From positions 22,519,704-22,583,703 of the forward strand of contig NC_088304.1 of the NCBI RefSeq assembly GCF_032854445.1: 64,000 bases of DNA. Reading direction: 5' to 3'. Positions within the stretch are counted from its first letter, which is position 1, and the number at the start of each line of letters is the position of its first letter. Source of the DNA: Liolophura sinensis. Taxonomy: Eukaryota > Mollusca > Polyplacophora > Chitonida > Chitonidae. Below the pieces are notes generated by a model, which worked only from the letters and a program-made list of their open reading frames with translations, had not been told where the DNA came from and did no database searches. Shown here piece by piece: positions 11,793 to 63,007 of this stretch. A program made the position numbers and the translations under genes.

Positions 11793-11885
11793 TCAACGCG
11801 CTGTCCAGCCGCCGTCAATGGTGAAGGCTGAGCCGGTAATCTGGTCAGCTGAGCGCGTGCACAGGAAGTGGATTAAATCTGCGAT
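11793..11885 (-). CDS. HBDH-like last exon with stop
   Basis: The acceptor is 'ttttttgtccag' before 11885, with TGA at 11795-11793. It encodes '[19 protein letters not shown]', then '[11 protein letters not shown]'. It begins in phase 0, as the end of exon 5 also does, so the missing part between them should be a multiple of three. Confidence 0.9.
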   Translation of the reverse strand: MADLIHFLCTRSADQITGSAFTIDGGWTAR

Positions 11886-14800: not shown

Positions 14801-17800
14801 ATAAATAATAAAGGTGCCTGTACATGTACACAATATCACAAAATGAACATTTTAAATTCTATCGTTTACGCTAATAACAGGCCTCAATTCATGAATCAGT
14901 TATTAGATCAATTTGAATGGCGTTTTTCCAAACGTTCATCAGTATTTCAATTATAACGACGGCGTTCGGATTTATGGATAAATGAAACCAGAGGCAGTCG
15001 GGTGAAAATGCTCACAGGTGAAACTGAAACCGAACCGGAGTCAGCTGGGTTCGAACCCGCGATAATTCATTTGTAGCTGCCAGCCGTTTCCAGTCCTACT
15101 GCCTAAGACAGAGGAATGGACGTGAGGATTGTATGTAGACACCATCAGGCAGAACAATGGATGTGCGGGTTGTACATGCAGATACAATGAGACAGAAGCA
15201 TGGTTGTGTGGATTGTACACGCAGACACAAGGAGAGAAGAATGGACGTGGGGGCAGTACATCCAGACACAATGAGACAGAACAATGGATGTGCGGGTTGT
15301 ACATGCAGACACAATGAGACAGAACAATGTATGTGGGGATTGTACATGCAGACACAATGAGACAGAACAATGAATGTTGGGATTGTATATGTGGACACAA
15401 TGAGACAGAAGAATGGATGTTGGGATTGTATATGTAGACACAACGATACAGATCGATGGATGTGCGGATTGTATATGTAGACACAATGAGACAGAACAAT
15501 GAATGAGGCATTGTACATGCAGATGCAATGGGACAGAACAATGGATGTGGGGATTATACATGCATACACAACGGAACAGAAGTTTGTCATGGGGGCAAAG
15601 AGGCAGAACAATGGATGTGGGGATTGTACATGCATACACAATGAGACAGAAGCATGGTTGTGGGGATTGTACATGCAGACACAATGAGACAGAAGCATGG
15701 TTGTGGGGATTGTAAATGTACGTGCAGAGGCAATGCGACAGAACAATTGATGTGGGAATTGCACATGCAGATACACAATGAGACAGAACATTGGATGTGC
15801 GGATTCAACATGCTGGCGCAATGACAGAGAACAATGGAGATGCGGATTGTACATGTAGACACAATGAGGCAGACGAATGGATGTGGGAATTGTACATGCA
15901 GACAGTGTTCTGTAAACATCAGTGAAATAACCTCGTACATGTAGAGGCTGATCTAACCTGACACAGCTAAACCTAGTGAATTACCAAGGACACATTACTA
16001 GTATGGAGGAAACCGAAAAGAAAAAAAAATACATGGAAACTCTTGGATCTTGCCAGTTAAAACTCCCTCGGGAAGGTCTGTCAAGAATCTGCGAATGGTT
16101 GCTGGTTTCCCCCGGGCTTTGCCCGGTTTCCTCCCACCATAATGCTGGCCACCGTCGTATAAGTGAAATATTCTTGAGTACGGTACACCAGTATAAATGC
16201 AAATAGTCATGCGTGCCTCGTGATTTGTTCGTTAGGCTTGGAGCTCTTCAATGGATGAAGGTGATATTGTGCAGCCTTCAATATATCTCCATGTTCACAT
16301 TGCTCTCCCGAGTTTACTGCCACATAGCACAACCAAATCATTGGCACATGGGGATTTCCCGGATTTCCATTTTCTCACTGGTTAACAAATCACATATCTA
16401 AGTAAAGGCTCACAGTATAAAGCTACCGTGAGACACGATAAAGGTTATGATATTGCTGATTTTCTATTTTGAAGTGTTTTAACTTTTAACCAAAAATTCA
16501 GAAAAATTAAAACTTATAGGCAATGGGCTTTTATTTCCATAGAGTCTTCCTTTGTTTTAACATTGTCGTGTAAACCCTACCTTGGTCAGCCCCACGACAC
16601 CGTGTTTAGCAGCACAATAAGCGGATTTCTGGGGAGAGGCTACTAGCCCGTGCACAGACGCTACGTTGATTATCCTGCCCCACCCTAGAGAGAAAATGTC
16701 AACATTTCACGACGTATATGAATCATTATAAATTATGTAGGCCTATTTCCGTAATAAAGAATTTGCTATATATTGCAAGGCATTCATTTCTGTTCGTCGA
16801 CAGAAACAATCTTGGTTTGCATAATCAACGGATGATATAAGAAAATTTATACTTGGACTTATATGTTGGGATACCCTATTTCTTTTAATTTTTGGGACAC
16901 CTGGTCTACTCATTTTAGCCAATATATATGGAATTGTAGCAGGAATATTTTCCTCACATGGTTAGATCATCCAATGAACAACATACTCAAGTCTTTAATT
17001 TCCAAAAGGTTGGTAAAGAAATGTAATATTCTACTTTCAACACTAATAATATCTGTCCCAAATTTTAGAAGAATTAGGGTATTCAAAATATTTGGAGTTG
17101 TCAAAAAGGTGCAAACGATCATATACTAATGTTATAAGTGCTAATGTTGCGTTGTTCATAAAAAAAACATTGTGGCACAAGACCCGTATCTATTTACATA
17201 CTGCGGCTGTAATAAACGAAAGAGAAAGCAAACAGAATGGAAAAGCACTAATATGAGAGATGGAAAAATGAAAACGTATTAGACATTCGGATTACCTTTG
17301 GTTTTCATTCCAGGTAGGAATGATCGGATGAGGTGAAACGGAGCGGAAAGCATGACGGCGACAAGTAAATTCCACTTCTCTACAGGAAAGTCCTCTACAG
17401 GACAAACATGCTGTAGTCCTGAAAGAAGACAAACACAAAGCTGAGCAGCTGTTCAGTTCGACTGAACAATTCTTTGTTTCGCGAGAGCGGAAGTCAAACT
17501 ACTATTATGTTACCGCACTTTATTCTTGGAAAACCTCCAGCTCAGTTCATGCCACACTCCTTACAGCGCATGCGTCGCTTTCTACCTTTCGCTTTGCATA
17601 TATGTGACACACGTAGGCTATTTAGGCTTAGCCTCATCACTTGTGTCCTCCCGCGGAACTATTTAATCATCATTCATCAAAAAACTTGTTTTAAGGTTTT
17701 AGTTAGAATCATGTTGCACATACTCTACATAAAGAAAATGAATGTGTATAAAGTATTGTGAGAGACAAAGATTGACAAGGATTGTTTGTGTTTTCTGACA

Positions 17801-20800
17801 TCATCACCCCACACATAAGCCGTAAGTGTAAAGGCTTACCAACGTTATTCACAACACGTCTACACCGTGTACGTCTTAATATTTCACCACCCCATACAGA
17901 AGCCGTAAGTGTAAAGGCTTACCAGCATTATTCACCAACACGTCTACACCGTGCTCATCTTAATATTTCACCACCCCATACAGAATCCGTAAGTGTAAAG
18001 GTTTACCAACGTTATTCATAACACCTTTACACCGTGTACGTCTTAATATTTCACCACCCCACACAGAATCCGTAAGTGTAAAGGCTTACCAACGTTATTC
18101 ACAACACGTCTACACCGTGTACGTATTAATATTTCACCACCCCATACAGAAGTCGTAAGTGTAAAGGCTTACCAACGTTATTCACAACAGGTTTACACCG
18201 TGTGCATCTTAATATTTCACCACCCCATACAGAATCCGTAAGTGTAAAGGCTTACCAACGTTATTCACAACACGTCTACACCGTGCTCGTCTTAATATTT
18301 CACCACCCCATACAGAATCCGTAAGTGTAAAGGCTTACCAACGTTATTCACAACACCTTTACACCGTGCGCATCTTAATATTTCACCACCCCACACAGAA
18401 TCCGTAAGTGTAAAGGCTTACCAACGTTATTCACAACACGTCTACACCGTGCTCATCTTAATATTTCACCACCCCACACAGAAGCTGTAAGTGTAAAGGC
18501 TTACCAGCATTATTCACCAACACGTCTACACCGTGCTCATCTTAATATTTCCACCACCCCACACAGAAGCTGTAAGTGTAAAGGCTTACCAACGTTATTC
18601 ACAACACGTCTACACCGTGCTCATCTTAATATTTCACCACCCCACACAGAATCCGTAAGTGTAAAGGCTTACCAACGTTATTCACAACACGTCTACACCG
18701 TGCTCATCTTAATATTTCACCACCCCACACAGAAGCTGTAAGTGTAAAGGCTTACCAGCATTATTCACCAACACGTCTACACCGTGCTCATCTTAATATT
18801 TCACCACCCCACACAGAAGCTGTAAGTGTAAAGGCTTACCAACGTTATTCACAACACGTCTACACCGTGCTCATCTTAATATTTCCACCACCCCACACAG
18901 AAGCTGTAAGTGTAAAGGCTTACCAACGTTATTCACAACACGTTTACATCGTGTGCATCTTCATGTTTCCTCACCCCATACAGAAGCCGTCAGTATAAAG
19001 GCTTACCAGCATTATTCACCAACACGTCTACACCGTTCGGAAATTCTCTTGCCACTTCGTTACACATGCGGGTCACCTCAGATTCCAGACTCAGATCTGC
19101 ATCAACGAAATGGCATCTTACGCCATGTTTCCTGGAAGAAATATAATTTTCATCACATCGATTAATATATTTACGTATTACTTTGATAGATTTTTATTCC
19201 CTACTGCAGAATCAGCTTGACAAACTGTTACATCAAAAACTTCGCATCTTATCTATTCCCTAACAAACCTCCACACTTTTGGGTTCCTAGGGTAACATAG
19301 GTTCTAAAGTTGTGAGCCTATGTTACCCTAGGAATATACAAATGTGTTTACTTTAACTCTTCTTGTCTGTGCATGGAGCTCGTACTAGAAATGACGATTT
19401 ATTTGCTTCTGTCAAGTCTTACGCTATCTAACTGCTTCACCCGTAAAACAACAGTAAAATAGGATTTAGCAATAGATTCCACACTTTGGATCTGAATTGC
19501 GCAAGCTATTAATTCGTCTTGGATGTTGGCGTAAACATACAAATCTGTGATATCTTGTGAGAAAAGAGCGTGAAGCTCGCTCTCTGTGTTCTCCTGGATG
19601 TTGATCCGGCACCTGGCGACAAGCCACAAACTCAGAATTAGCATGTTGGTGATTTTTTTTTAACTGAGCTCTGCCCCACCGTTTGTCTTCCACCTATATG
19701 CCTGGCGATAGACCACAGACCCAGAAAGTAGAATGTTAGTGGTTTTGGGTGGGCTCTGCCCAATCAGTGGTATTCCGCCAATATGGCGTGCAGGCCGTCA
19801 CGCCTGAGAACGTTGGTTCATAACTCACCAAAGGTCGGTGGTTCTGTCGTACCTGCCAAAATATTCTTAAGTAAAACATCCAGTGAAATAAACATAACTG
19901 TTAAATGACATGCATACATACACCTACCTGTTGATGTTGTCCTGAATTGCTTGTATCTGATGTCGGTCTCCTAGACCGTTCACGATGACGTCACAGCCTC
20001 GTTCAGCTAACGTCTCCGCCACTCCGAGTCCGATGCCGGATGTAGACCCGGTTACAAGGGCGGTCTTACCCGAGAGGTCACGACCTGAGGAGTATTACAC
20101 CGTAAAACTATAGTGGCGAGGACTGCATAGGGCCTGGCGCTGTGTGATGTATTTTATTTATTTATTTATTTGACTGGTATTTTATTGTATATTTCCTTTA
20201 ACCGATTGCGGCCAAAATTATACTGGTAGAGTTGTCCACGTTCGAGTTAAGAGCAGTATTCTGCATGAGCTGGGCTGTATTAACATAACATGTATCCATG
20301 ACCATGGGGTGTATTCAAAAATAGAACTAATCTTATGTATTTCGTCGGGCATACGTCGAGATATCAGCTGCGTTGATCTTCTCTGCGCGTGAATGTGATG
20401 CGTGTGTTTACACATGCGTACCTACGTGAATGTCGCGGTGGGCCTAGACATATTGCTGTGCATACACGTTTGTATATACAGGATTTCATGCGCATGTATA
20501 TATGCATGCATTTGTGCACGTCAGAGTTCACACGTGCATGCATCAACGTACATTTATACCTGTATATATACTTACGTGCATGGTAGTGTCCAAAACCCCC
20601 ACGCCCACTAGCACCATCACCCCTACCAACACCTTCATAACCATCCCACTCCGCACCGCGCCACCCCCGCAACCGCCCACACCTCCACTATCACTATCAC
20701 ATGACCCATAACAGCACCCCTACTTCCACCCTGACACCCACCCAGCCTACGTCCCCCACCCCCACCCCCAGCCTCACTCACTGGTTTTGGCAAATCCACG

Positions 20801-25186: not shown

Positions 25187-25605
25187 CCGAGATGTTATCG
25201 CACGTCCATGGTATGTTACTTTTTGGTGACTTGGTGCCAGTAATATACACTCCTCAATACCCCCATTAACAGCAGATTCAGTTACAGGATAAGGTAGTAT
25301 ATGTTATAAGGGGACAATAGTTAACGTATATCAGGGGACACAACTCTTATGACCTCTTAACACTACTGGATAGTCTCTCTTGACTTGCGCATCTGATCAG
25401 TTTTCTCTTTCTTATAGCGCTTACTACGCATTTAGCAAACTGTGAATACTCTTGAAGAGTTCTACTCTACTTGCCAACATTTTGGTATGTGGTATACTTA
25501 GGCCATTTAAAATCGGCGTTTTGAACAGGAAATTTGCAAATTGGTTGGTGTTCAGATCTAGCTTTGGCAGATTCACTGATTTACCCGTTCATGTACATGT
25601 GCTGT
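25187..25605. other. Non-coding spacer
   Basis: The first 60 or so bases match the 3' flank of the EF-hand pseudogene at 4028-4490. The rest is unremarkable. Confidence 0.5.
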
Positions 25606-26720
25606 GTTTCCCAGATAAACCTTCCTGTATATGTGCTGTGTTCTCAGAAAAAACTTCCCGCATATGTGCCGTGTTTCCCAGGTAAACCTTCCTATTTATA
25701 TGCCGGGTTTCCCAAATAAACCTTCCTACATATGAGCAGTGTTTCCCAGATAAACCTTCCTGTATATGTGCTGTGTTTCCCAGATAACCATTCCTGTATA
25801 TGTGCTGTGTTTCCCAGATAAACCTTCCTGTATACGTACTGTTTCCCAGATAAACCTTCCTGTATACGTGCTGTGTTTCCCAGATAAACCTTCCTGCATA
25901 TGAGCTGTTTCCCAGATAATCCTTCCTGTATACGTGCTGTTTCCCAGATAAACCTTCCTGCATGAGCTGTGTTTCCTAGATAAACCTTCCTGCATATGAG
26001 CTGTGTTTCCCAGATAACCCTTCCTGTGTATGTGCCATGTTTCCCAGATAAACCTTCCTGTATACGTGCTGTTTCCCAGATAAACCTTTCTGCATATGAG
26101 CTGTGTTTCCCCAGATAAACCTTCCTGTATACGTGCTGTTTCCCAGATAAACCTTCCTGCATATGAGCCGTGTTTCCCAGGTAAACCTTCCTATTTATGT
26201 GCTGTGTTTCCCAGGTAAACCTTCCTATTTATGTGCTGTGTTTCCCAGATAAACCTTCCTGTATACGTGCCGTGTTTCCCAGATAAACCTTCCTGTATAT
26301 GTGCTGTGTTTCCCAGATAATCCTTCCTGGATATGAGCCGTGTTTCCCAGGTAAACCTTCCTATTTATGTGCTGTGTTTCCCAGATAAACCTTCCTGTAT
26401 ACGTGCTGTTTCCCAGATAAACCTTCCTGTATACGTGCTGTGTTTCCCAGATAATCCTTCCTGGATATGAGCCGTGTTTCCCAGGTAAACCTTCCTATTT
26501 ATGTGCTGTGTTTCCCAGGTAAACCTTGGTATAAATGTGCAGTGTTTCCAAGATAACTCTTCCTGTATATGTGGTATGTTTCCCAGATAAACCTCCCTGT
26601 ATGTGTTCTGTGTTTCCCACATAAACCTTCGTGTATATATGTTATGTTTTCCCACATAAACCTTCTTGTACATATGCTTTGTTTTCCGGGTAAACGTTGT
26701 TGTAGGCTCATTTTGAGTAA
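25606..26720. repeat. 33-35 bp minisatellite, about 30 copies
   Basis: Core 'tgtgtttcccagataaacct' followed by 'tcctgtatatgtgc'. Unit length alternates between about 30 and 35 through presence or absence of 'gtgt' or 'tat'. Open frames on the minus strand are repeat artefacts. Confidence 0.93.
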
Positions 26721-61159: not shown

Positions 61160-63007
61160 TATCTGAAGGCAATTCTTGCATGAACTGAGCAATGTGGTGA
61201 AAACCTTTCCTAAATGTTTATACGTGTGCTTCAGCCAGCATACATGTGTGGGAGGTAAAACATGTCAGCATTATTACCAATATACCTTTCAATATATGAA
61301 CTGAGCAACGTGGTAAAAACCATTCCTGAATGTTTATACGTGTGCTCCAGCCAGCATACATGTGTGGGAGGTAAAACATGTCAGCATTATTACCAATATA
61401 CCTTTCAATATATGAACTGAGCAACGTGGTAAAAACCATTCCTGAATGTTCATACGTGTGCTTCATCCAGCATACATGTGTGGGAGGTAAAACATGTCAG
61501 CATTATTACCAATACACCTTTCAATACATGAACTGAGCAACGTGGTAAAAAACCTTTCCTGAATGTTTATACGTGTGCTTCAGCCAGCATACATGTGTGG
61601 GAGGTAAAACATGTCAGCATTATTACCAATATACCTTTCAATATATGAACTGAGCAACGTGGTAAAAACCATTCCTGAATGTTCATACGTGTGCTTCATC
61701 CAGCATACATGTGTGGGAGGTAAAACATGTCAGCATTATTACCAATACACCTTTCAATACATGAACTGAGCACCGTGGTAAAAACCTTTCCTGAATGTTT
61801 ATACGTGTGCTCCAGCCAGCATACATGTGTGGGAGGTAAAACATGTCAGCATTATTACCAATACACCTTTCAATACATGAAGTGATGAAAACCTTTCCTG
61901 AATGTTCATATGTGTGCTTCATCCAGCATACATGTGTGGGAGGTAAAACATGTCAGCATTATTACCAATACACCTTTCAATACATGAACTGAGCAACGTG
62001 GTAAAAACCTTTCCTGAATGTTTATACGTGTGCTTCAGCCAGCATACATGTGTGGGAGGTAAAACATGTCAGCATTATTACCAATACACCTTTCAATACA
62101 TGAACTGAGCAACGTGGTAAAAACCTTTCCTGAATGTTTATACGTGTGCTCCAGCCAGCATACATGTGTGGGAGGTAAAACATGTCAGCATTATTACCAA
62201 TATACCTTTCAATATATGAACTGAGCAACGTGGTAAAAACCATTCCTGAATGTTCATACGTGTGCTTCAGCCAGCATACATGTGTGGGAGGTAAAACATG
62301 TCAGCATTATTACCAATATACCTTTCAATATATGAACTGAGCAACGTGGTAAAAACCTTTCCTGAATGTTTATACGTGTGCTTCAGCCAGCATACATGTG
62401 TGGGAGGTAAAACATGTCAGCATTATTACCAATACACCTTTCAATACATGAAGTGATGAAAACCTTTCCTGAATGTTCATACGTGTGCTTCATCCAGCAT
62501 ACATGTGTGGGAGGTAAAACATGTCAGCATTATTACCAATACACCTTTCAATACATGAAGTGATGAAAACCATTCCTGAATGTTCATACGTGTGCTTCAT
62601 CCAGCATACATGTGTGGGAGGTAAAACATGTCAGCATTATTACCAATACACCTTTCAATACATGAAGTGATGAAAACCATTCCTGAATGTTCATACGTGT
62701 GCTTCAGCCAGCATACATGTGTGGGAGGTAAAACATGTCAGCATTATTACCAATACACCTTTCAATACATGAAGTGAGCAACGTGATGAAAACCTTTCCT
62801 GAATGTTCATACGTGTGCTTCATCCAGCATACATGTGTGGGAGGTAAAACATGTCAGCATTATTACCAATACACCTTTCAATACATGAACTGAGCAATGT
62901 GGTGAAAACCTTTCCTGAATGTTCATATGTGTGCTTCAGCCAGCATACACATGTGGGAGGTAAAACATGTCAGCATTATTACCAATATACCTTTCAATAC
63001 ATGAACT
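61160..63007. repeat. 116-bp satellite-like array, about 16-17 units
   Basis: Units contain 'aactgagcaacgtggtaaaa', 'cctttcctgaatgtttatac', 'gtgtgcttcagccagcatac', 'atgtgtgggaggtaaaacat' and 'gtcagcattattaccaatac'. Full units are about 116 bp. A shorter class of about 105 bp lacks the 'ctgagcaacgtgg' part and reads 'gaagtgatgaaaacc'. Units are very similar, so homogenisation is recent. The array ends at 63007, where a SINE-tail-like segment begins. Confidence 0.96.

Follow-up and report, generated by a model that had tools for sequence, protein, structure and literature searches.

How does an intron come to hold more than a dozen copies of its own 5′ splice site, each preceded by the end of the exon to which that site belongs, and what would such copies mean for splicing? 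The question is raised by a 64,000-nucleotide stretch of the chiton Liolophura sinensis (assembly GCF_032854445.1, contig NC_088304.1, forward-strand positions 22,519,704 to 22,583,703; hereafter the window, in whose own numbering positions are given), where intron 3 of a 3-hydroxybutyrate dehydrogenase (HBDH)-like gene on the minus strand carries a minisatellite beside exon 3. We conclude that this array is very likely a ‘mirage’ minisatellite, generated passively as sequence was duplicated in tandem and exchanged.

Exon 3 (19007..19131, minus strand, 125 nt) is bordered by the acceptor TTCTTCCAG before 19131 and the donor GTAAGC after 19007; its open frame runs KHGVRCHF...VLVNNA and the exon ends as ...VNNA-G. 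The true 5′ splice site of intron 3 is placed at 19001..19006 (minus strand, GTAAGC), and exons 2–5, so joined at GT-AG sites, yield a 170-residue stretch that reads as an HBDH. Its best NCBIfam match is TIGR01963, 3-hydroxybutyrate dehydrogenase (7e-64, 215.5 bits, below the cut-off of 307, as expected for a partial protein), and its closest solved structure is the 3-hydroxybutyrate dehydrogenase 5yss (8.3e-56). Intron 3 (17419..19006, minus strand, 1588 nt) starts with GTAAGCCT and ends with TCTTTCAG, and is followed by exon 4 (17296..17418, minus strand), the expected partner of exon 3.

Tandem Repeats Finder (TRF) places the array at 17801–19036, with a period of 83, 14.8 copies and 92% matches. 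Together with alignment, this resolves 14 units, U1–U14 (17801..18955, minus strand, 83–85 bp spacing), which occupy 1155 of the 1588 nt of the intron. The array adjoins its source exon inside that exon's own intron, exon 3 ending at 19007 and U1 starting at 18955. Each unit consists of ~30 nt of exon-3 end, a donor and ~50 nt resembling the intron start. The unit donors lie, on the minus strand, at 18923, 18839, 18755, 18672, 18589, 18504 and 18421, followed by 18338, 18255, 18172, 18089, 18006, 17922 and 17839. All 14 retain GT and 13 retain GTAAGC, the sole altered one being that of U12 (GTAAAC, 18001..18006, minus strand). Two unit types were distinguished. In the three A-type units, U3 (18705..18787), U6 (18454..18536) and U13 (17872..17954), all aligned on the minus strand, the exonic part equals exon 3 exactly over 30 nt, whereas the 11 B-type units carry one deleted G, a T>C and a C>T, always together, in that part. 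These counts bear out an earlier note on this DNA, which had described a minisatellite built from the adjacent exon end and its donor, with about 14 decoy donors, some units being identical to the exon and most differing by a one-base deletion and substitutions.

The similarity to the exon is confined to its end. Aligned to the array with the exon copy excluded, the final 32 nt of exon 3 reach a score of 60, against a maximum of 32 in 1000 dinucleotide shuffles, none of which matches the similarity of the exon end; aligned to a single deleted-type unit they score 43, against a shuffle maximum of 27. Three earlier 32-nt pieces, the first of which takes in 9 nt of intron 2, score 12–16, like the remainder of intron 3 (16). 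A comparison with shuffled sequence had been named in the earlier note as a test that could overturn the exon-like character of the units, and that character stands. On sequence grounds exon 3 is the source of the array, since it encodes the NNAG segment conserved in HBDHs.

The proposed course begins with a segment of ~83 bp over the exon 3/intron 3 boundary (~30 nt of exon and ~53 nt of intron), which would have been duplicated in tandem. Because a duplication that spans the boundary leaves the original exon and its donor intact, the exon retains a coding copy. The copies would then have multiplied within the intron through slippage or unequal exchange, also in blocks of three, while homogenisation would have acted inside the array and left out the copies at its edges. 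Several features of the array are relevant to this course. Units U2-U3-U4 and U5-U6-U7 (18371..18871, minus strand) are identical at 250 of 251 columns, and we therefore recognize a recent three-unit duplication. The identity matrix, in which U3 equals U6 and U4 equals U7, shows that the inner units are alike, whereas the edge copies E3 (75–90%) and U14 (75–85%) are the most divergent, U14 partly because its distal end lies outside the repeat. Diverged edges combined with similar inner units fit slippage or unequal exchange with homogenisation, as reported for the lancelet globin BflGb6 (PMC3087553). The A-type units may be old or may have been refreshed from the exon, and their sequence fits both. 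In the exon loci sampled below, minisatellites occur in 34 of 75 and take up 18,010 of 260,619 sampled bases; tandem duplication is therefore common in this genome.

Two sets of observations weigh against a purely passive array. Firstly, when units U1–U13 are compared with the exon copy (U14 excluded), only 1 of 91 donor cells differs, whereas exonic cells differ in 39 of 390 cases and intronic cells in 105 of 572, and this low rate of donor change, together with the retention of the donor in 13 of the 14 units, could hint at selection. Secondly, repeat units of a human minisatellite, that of IFI6, serve as donors (PMC4526556). We read donor retention as a property of young, homogenised copies; expressed as variable columns, the figures are 1 of 7 in the donor and 15 of 74 elsewhere. 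The sequence itself shows the structure and source of the array, the block duplication and the further cases described below, whereas we infer that the array is passive, how the splice site is chosen and how units were exchanged. Passivity is judged most likely because splicing is reported to be undisturbed by lancelet mirages (PMC3087553, PMC3902484).

For splicing, the central issue is what could set the true donor apart from its copies. The energy of the duplex with U1, computed with the U1 5′ end, is −8.0 for the true donor and for 13 of the 14 decoys, and weaker (−5.3) for the altered U12 donor. Another GT, in the opening part of the intron at 18974, reaches −9.8 and outscores the true donor, so duplex energy is a limited measure. 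Opening energies of the 14 decoys range from 2.7 to 8.9 kcal/mol (2.7–6.8 for the 13 with GTAAGC; U8 and the already mutated U12 stand out) and fall on both sides of the true donor's 4.5. Donor strength was thus rejected as a discriminator, given the equality of 13 decoys with the true donor, and so was local RNA structure. Use of any of the 14 decoys would read through the same intron start to the same premature stop after VNNAGKPLY; donor choice could therefore not diversify the protein and could at most lower its dosage. With respect to pseudo-exons inside the array, its AGs have a pyrimidine fraction of at best 0.59, against 0.82 at the true acceptor. The first donor is probably the one used, with exon definition pairing the exon-3 acceptor with the nearest donor. 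Leakage to the decoys would be low-level at most and would give transcripts that stop after VNNAGKPLY.

The same measurements bear on the strongest rival, in which the array is a splicing tuner or poison array whose donors compete for U1, so that copy number sets enzyme dosage through stop-containing transcripts. The shared duplex energy, the opening energies of the 13 decoys on either side of that of the true donor, the single stop common to all 14 possible products and the behaviour of the human IFI6 units would all suit such a role. We nevertheless consider it unlikely, in view of the undisturbed splicing reported for lancelet mirages and of the truncation of every decoy product, which would leave dosage as the sole quantity to be tuned.

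A second rival, also raised in the earlier note, casts the array as a reservoir for gene conversion into the coding exon. Although the exact match of three units over the 30 exonic nucleotides would permit this, such units would leave the exon unchanged there, and the other 11 are one base short and would import a frameshift, so a useful reservoir is very improbable and that suggestion is much weakened. Exchange from exon to array is conceivable, but its outcome would be indistinguishable from retained ancestral sequence. Least credible of all is an assembly artefact, to which the reliance on one assembly and the proneness of tandem arrays to mis-assembly (noted for one lancelet globin; PMC3087553) might point, given that the HiFi reads average 8,347 bp and exceed the array in length (PMC11068029), that the units differ from one another, the recent block copy aside, and that further cases occur at other genes of the same genome.

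These further cases come from a survey of 75 exon loci in four Pfam families, selected as best-scoring matches and not by random draw (19 of 19 SDR, 26 of 99 P450, 14 of 14 aldehyde dehydrogenase and 16 of 18 AMP-binding matches). A locus was flagged when a local repeat match of E ≤ 1e-4 and ≥ 25 nt touched the matched exon ±30. Some loci share a gene, several are long matches within a single open reading frame, and profile edges are not exact exon edges; the survey therefore supports no rate beyond ‘not rare’. Five of the 75 loci were flagged, namely L025, L030 and L065 (3/59) and L079 and L080 (2/16). After inspection, repeats span the exon boundary in two of the 75, strongly in L080 and in degenerate form in L025, and both are acceptor-side mirages.

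In L080, an AMP-binding gene (region G000:C6:18007630), TRF reports a 50-nt unit repeated 23.2 times at 350–1512 of the locus. TAACAG immediately precedes the exon, which begins at 1489, and its TAA forms an in-frame stop. The repeated unit upstream combines a pyrimidine tract and AG with the start of the exon, GTTAATGGTACAACTGG (about the first 17–35 nt of the exon). For the first 36 exon nucleotides the score is 45, whereas none of 500 mononucleotide shuffles exceeds 26, and at least 10 copies were located individually by pattern. In L025, an SDR gene (region G000:C3:19272704), an acceptor-side boundary duplication at 1285–1499 has a unit of about 98 nt in 2–3 copies; the exon starts at 1484 and the copies lie at 1385 and 1287, and 118 aligned columns show 78% identity. 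A score of 70 is obtained for the boundary ±40, where shuffles reach 27 at most, although the exon part alone is weak, its score being reached by 43 of 1000 mononucleotide shuffles.

The three other flagged loci were reclassified and are not counted as boundary-spanning. In L079, an AMP-binding gene (region G000:C8:49927295), a 92-nt × 13 minisatellite (240–1515), internally periodic at about 18 nt, lies directly behind the true donor of the exon; its 1275 nt contain 56 GTRAGT motifs, where shuffles give 2.6. Of the exon the array includes only the last base, and the last 30 exon nucleotides score 10, a value reached by 500 of 500 shuffles. In L065, an aldehyde dehydrogenase gene (region G000:C11:29422443), a 79-nt × 3 array (1264–1500) covers the stop-codon end of the apparent last exon, and in L030 the match lies within the P450 exon with its partner 839 nt away and was taken as unrelated. 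An initial pass through the 19 SDR loci under less strict conditions had also given 20-nt matches in L013 and L017, as well as array ends in L027 with 35 matches, of which the six listed stop at 1375 and so fall short of the matched exon (1501); none of these was counted.

As a control, local repeats straddle 36 of 450 fixed flank points of the 75 loci, compared with exon boundaries in 2 of 75 loci. The comparison is unmatched, since exons are under constraint, profile edges only approximate splice sites and the criteria differ. This control of 450 flank points at 75 loci thus gives no evidence that arrays are more frequent at boundaries than elsewhere. Flank points being straddled more often than exon boundaries, we regard mirages as that part of a general process which falls on boundaries. 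We further advance, tentatively and with some doubt, the broader claim that minisatellites derived from splice sites, on both donor and acceptor sides, are a common and ongoing product in this genome, affecting a share of exons at the per-cent level, and that its spliceosome routinely picks among a dozen or more equal neighbours. If true, chitons would offer a second lineage besides lancelets for genome-scale tests of splice-site choice and of mirage-driven intron change. The window itself is very minisatellite-rich, with 53 TRF rows in 64 kb, examples being 61179–63007 (116-bp × 16) and 25588–26695 (34-bp × 33).

Turri et al. in 1995 are said to have found that the human 6-16 minisatellite provides multiple donors, and the IFI6 repeat unit is short. 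The earlier note knew of no described class of minisatellites derived from an exon and its donor. Such a class does exist, because mirages have been published for lancelets (PMC3087553, PMC3902484) and a donor-supplying human minisatellite is cited in the literature (PMC4526556). In lancelets, such repeats across exon-intron boundaries were described in Adh3 and in the globins BflGb6 and BflGb9 (PMC3087553), and also in troponin C and PGBD5 (PMC3902484). The homogenised inner units and diverged edges of the BflGb6 mirage recur in the chiton array (PMC3087553). The latter differs in belonging to a mollusc, in its 14 copies and in its donor-side unit of ~83 bp, which is unlike the lancelet sizes of 10–72 bp in Adh3, 150–160 and 157 bp in the globins and 60 and 108 bp in PGBD5 (PMC3087553, PMC3902484).

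With the human IFI6 (6-16/G1P3) minisatellite the chiton array shares tandem units bearing donors at an exon end (PMC4526556, PMC2572611). In IFI6, three mRNA species arise through the use of two repeat units further downstream as donors (PMC4526556), whereas decoy use in the chiton, predicted from the translated sequence, would end the frame. Tandem duplication is also a demonstrated route of intron gain, and this route has the multiplication of splice signals in common with the chiton array (PMC3443670); there, however, a new intron is made from duplicated exonic sequence, while the chiton array sits in an intron already spliced at that place. Human tandem repeats at exon-intron boundaries have likewise been linked to new introns (PMC2812944), and an ordinary intronic minisatellite is known from abalone (PMC6905558). 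In open-licence literature we found no report of a mirage in a mollusc or chiton, and among the matches listed the term itself appeared in the two lancelet papers only (PMC3087553, PMC3902484). The class is thus known, and what is unreported, as far as that literature shows, is that it occurs in a mollusc and that this genome holds further cases.

Taken together, the 14 copies present here in a mollusc and, from the 75 sampled loci, the two cases on the acceptor side and the array of donor motifs suggest that such arrays are a wider consequence of minisatellite-rich introns. Because U1 duplex energy and simple local structure fail to separate the true donor from its copies, the arrays constitute natural experiments on the choice among identical sites. 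They may also mislead automatic gene prediction.

The remainder of the HBDH-like gene bears on the consequences of the array. On the minus strand, exon 2 ends at 19928 and exon 5 occupies about 16684–16581, both joined at GT-AG sites, and a last coding piece of 24 residues lies at about 11793–11870. Probing of the minus strand of the window between 11900 and 16560, a range without N, found no convincing segment linking exon 5 to this last piece; the best short match, located at 15099, meets a stop codon after 10 residues and was taken as chance. The missing segment may have diverged, may be broken up into short exons or may have been lost. In the last case the gene would be in decay and the array would have no consequence. 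Searched at E ≤ 0.001, the 44-residue piece of exon 3 had a single match, itself (4 candidates scored), and a DNA search with two units gave nine matches, all at the HBDH-like locus. A search of the genome with the TIGR01963 family returned 16 matches, none above the cut-off, among them exons 4 and 5 of the HBDH-like gene. Other matches, on contig C12 at 20637865, 25523081 and 25524346 (to about 25524471), cover the part of the TIGR01963 profile to which these two exons correspond, and there may accordingly be distant HBDH-like paralogues on that contig.

As regards the source of the DNA, a published correction renames the Liolophura species concerned as L. sinensis (PMC12441733). In the mitochondrial contig C632, cox1 was identified by family model and rrnL by Rfam. 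Its other protein genes are named from their translations. One strand reads nad2-cox1-cox2-D-atp6 and the other F-nad5-H-nad4-nad4L-S-cob-nad6-nad1-L-L-rrnL-V-M, with the tRNAs C-Y-W-Q-G-E beyond M and with cox3-K-A-R-N-I-nad3-S preceding nad2, an arrangement that we take to be the chiton-like molluscan gene order and that accordingly places the organism among the chitons. A further contig, C99, contains seven cox1 matches at a spacing of about 15.5 kb and apparently consists of concatenated mitochondrial genomes, the concatenation being probably a product of assembly.

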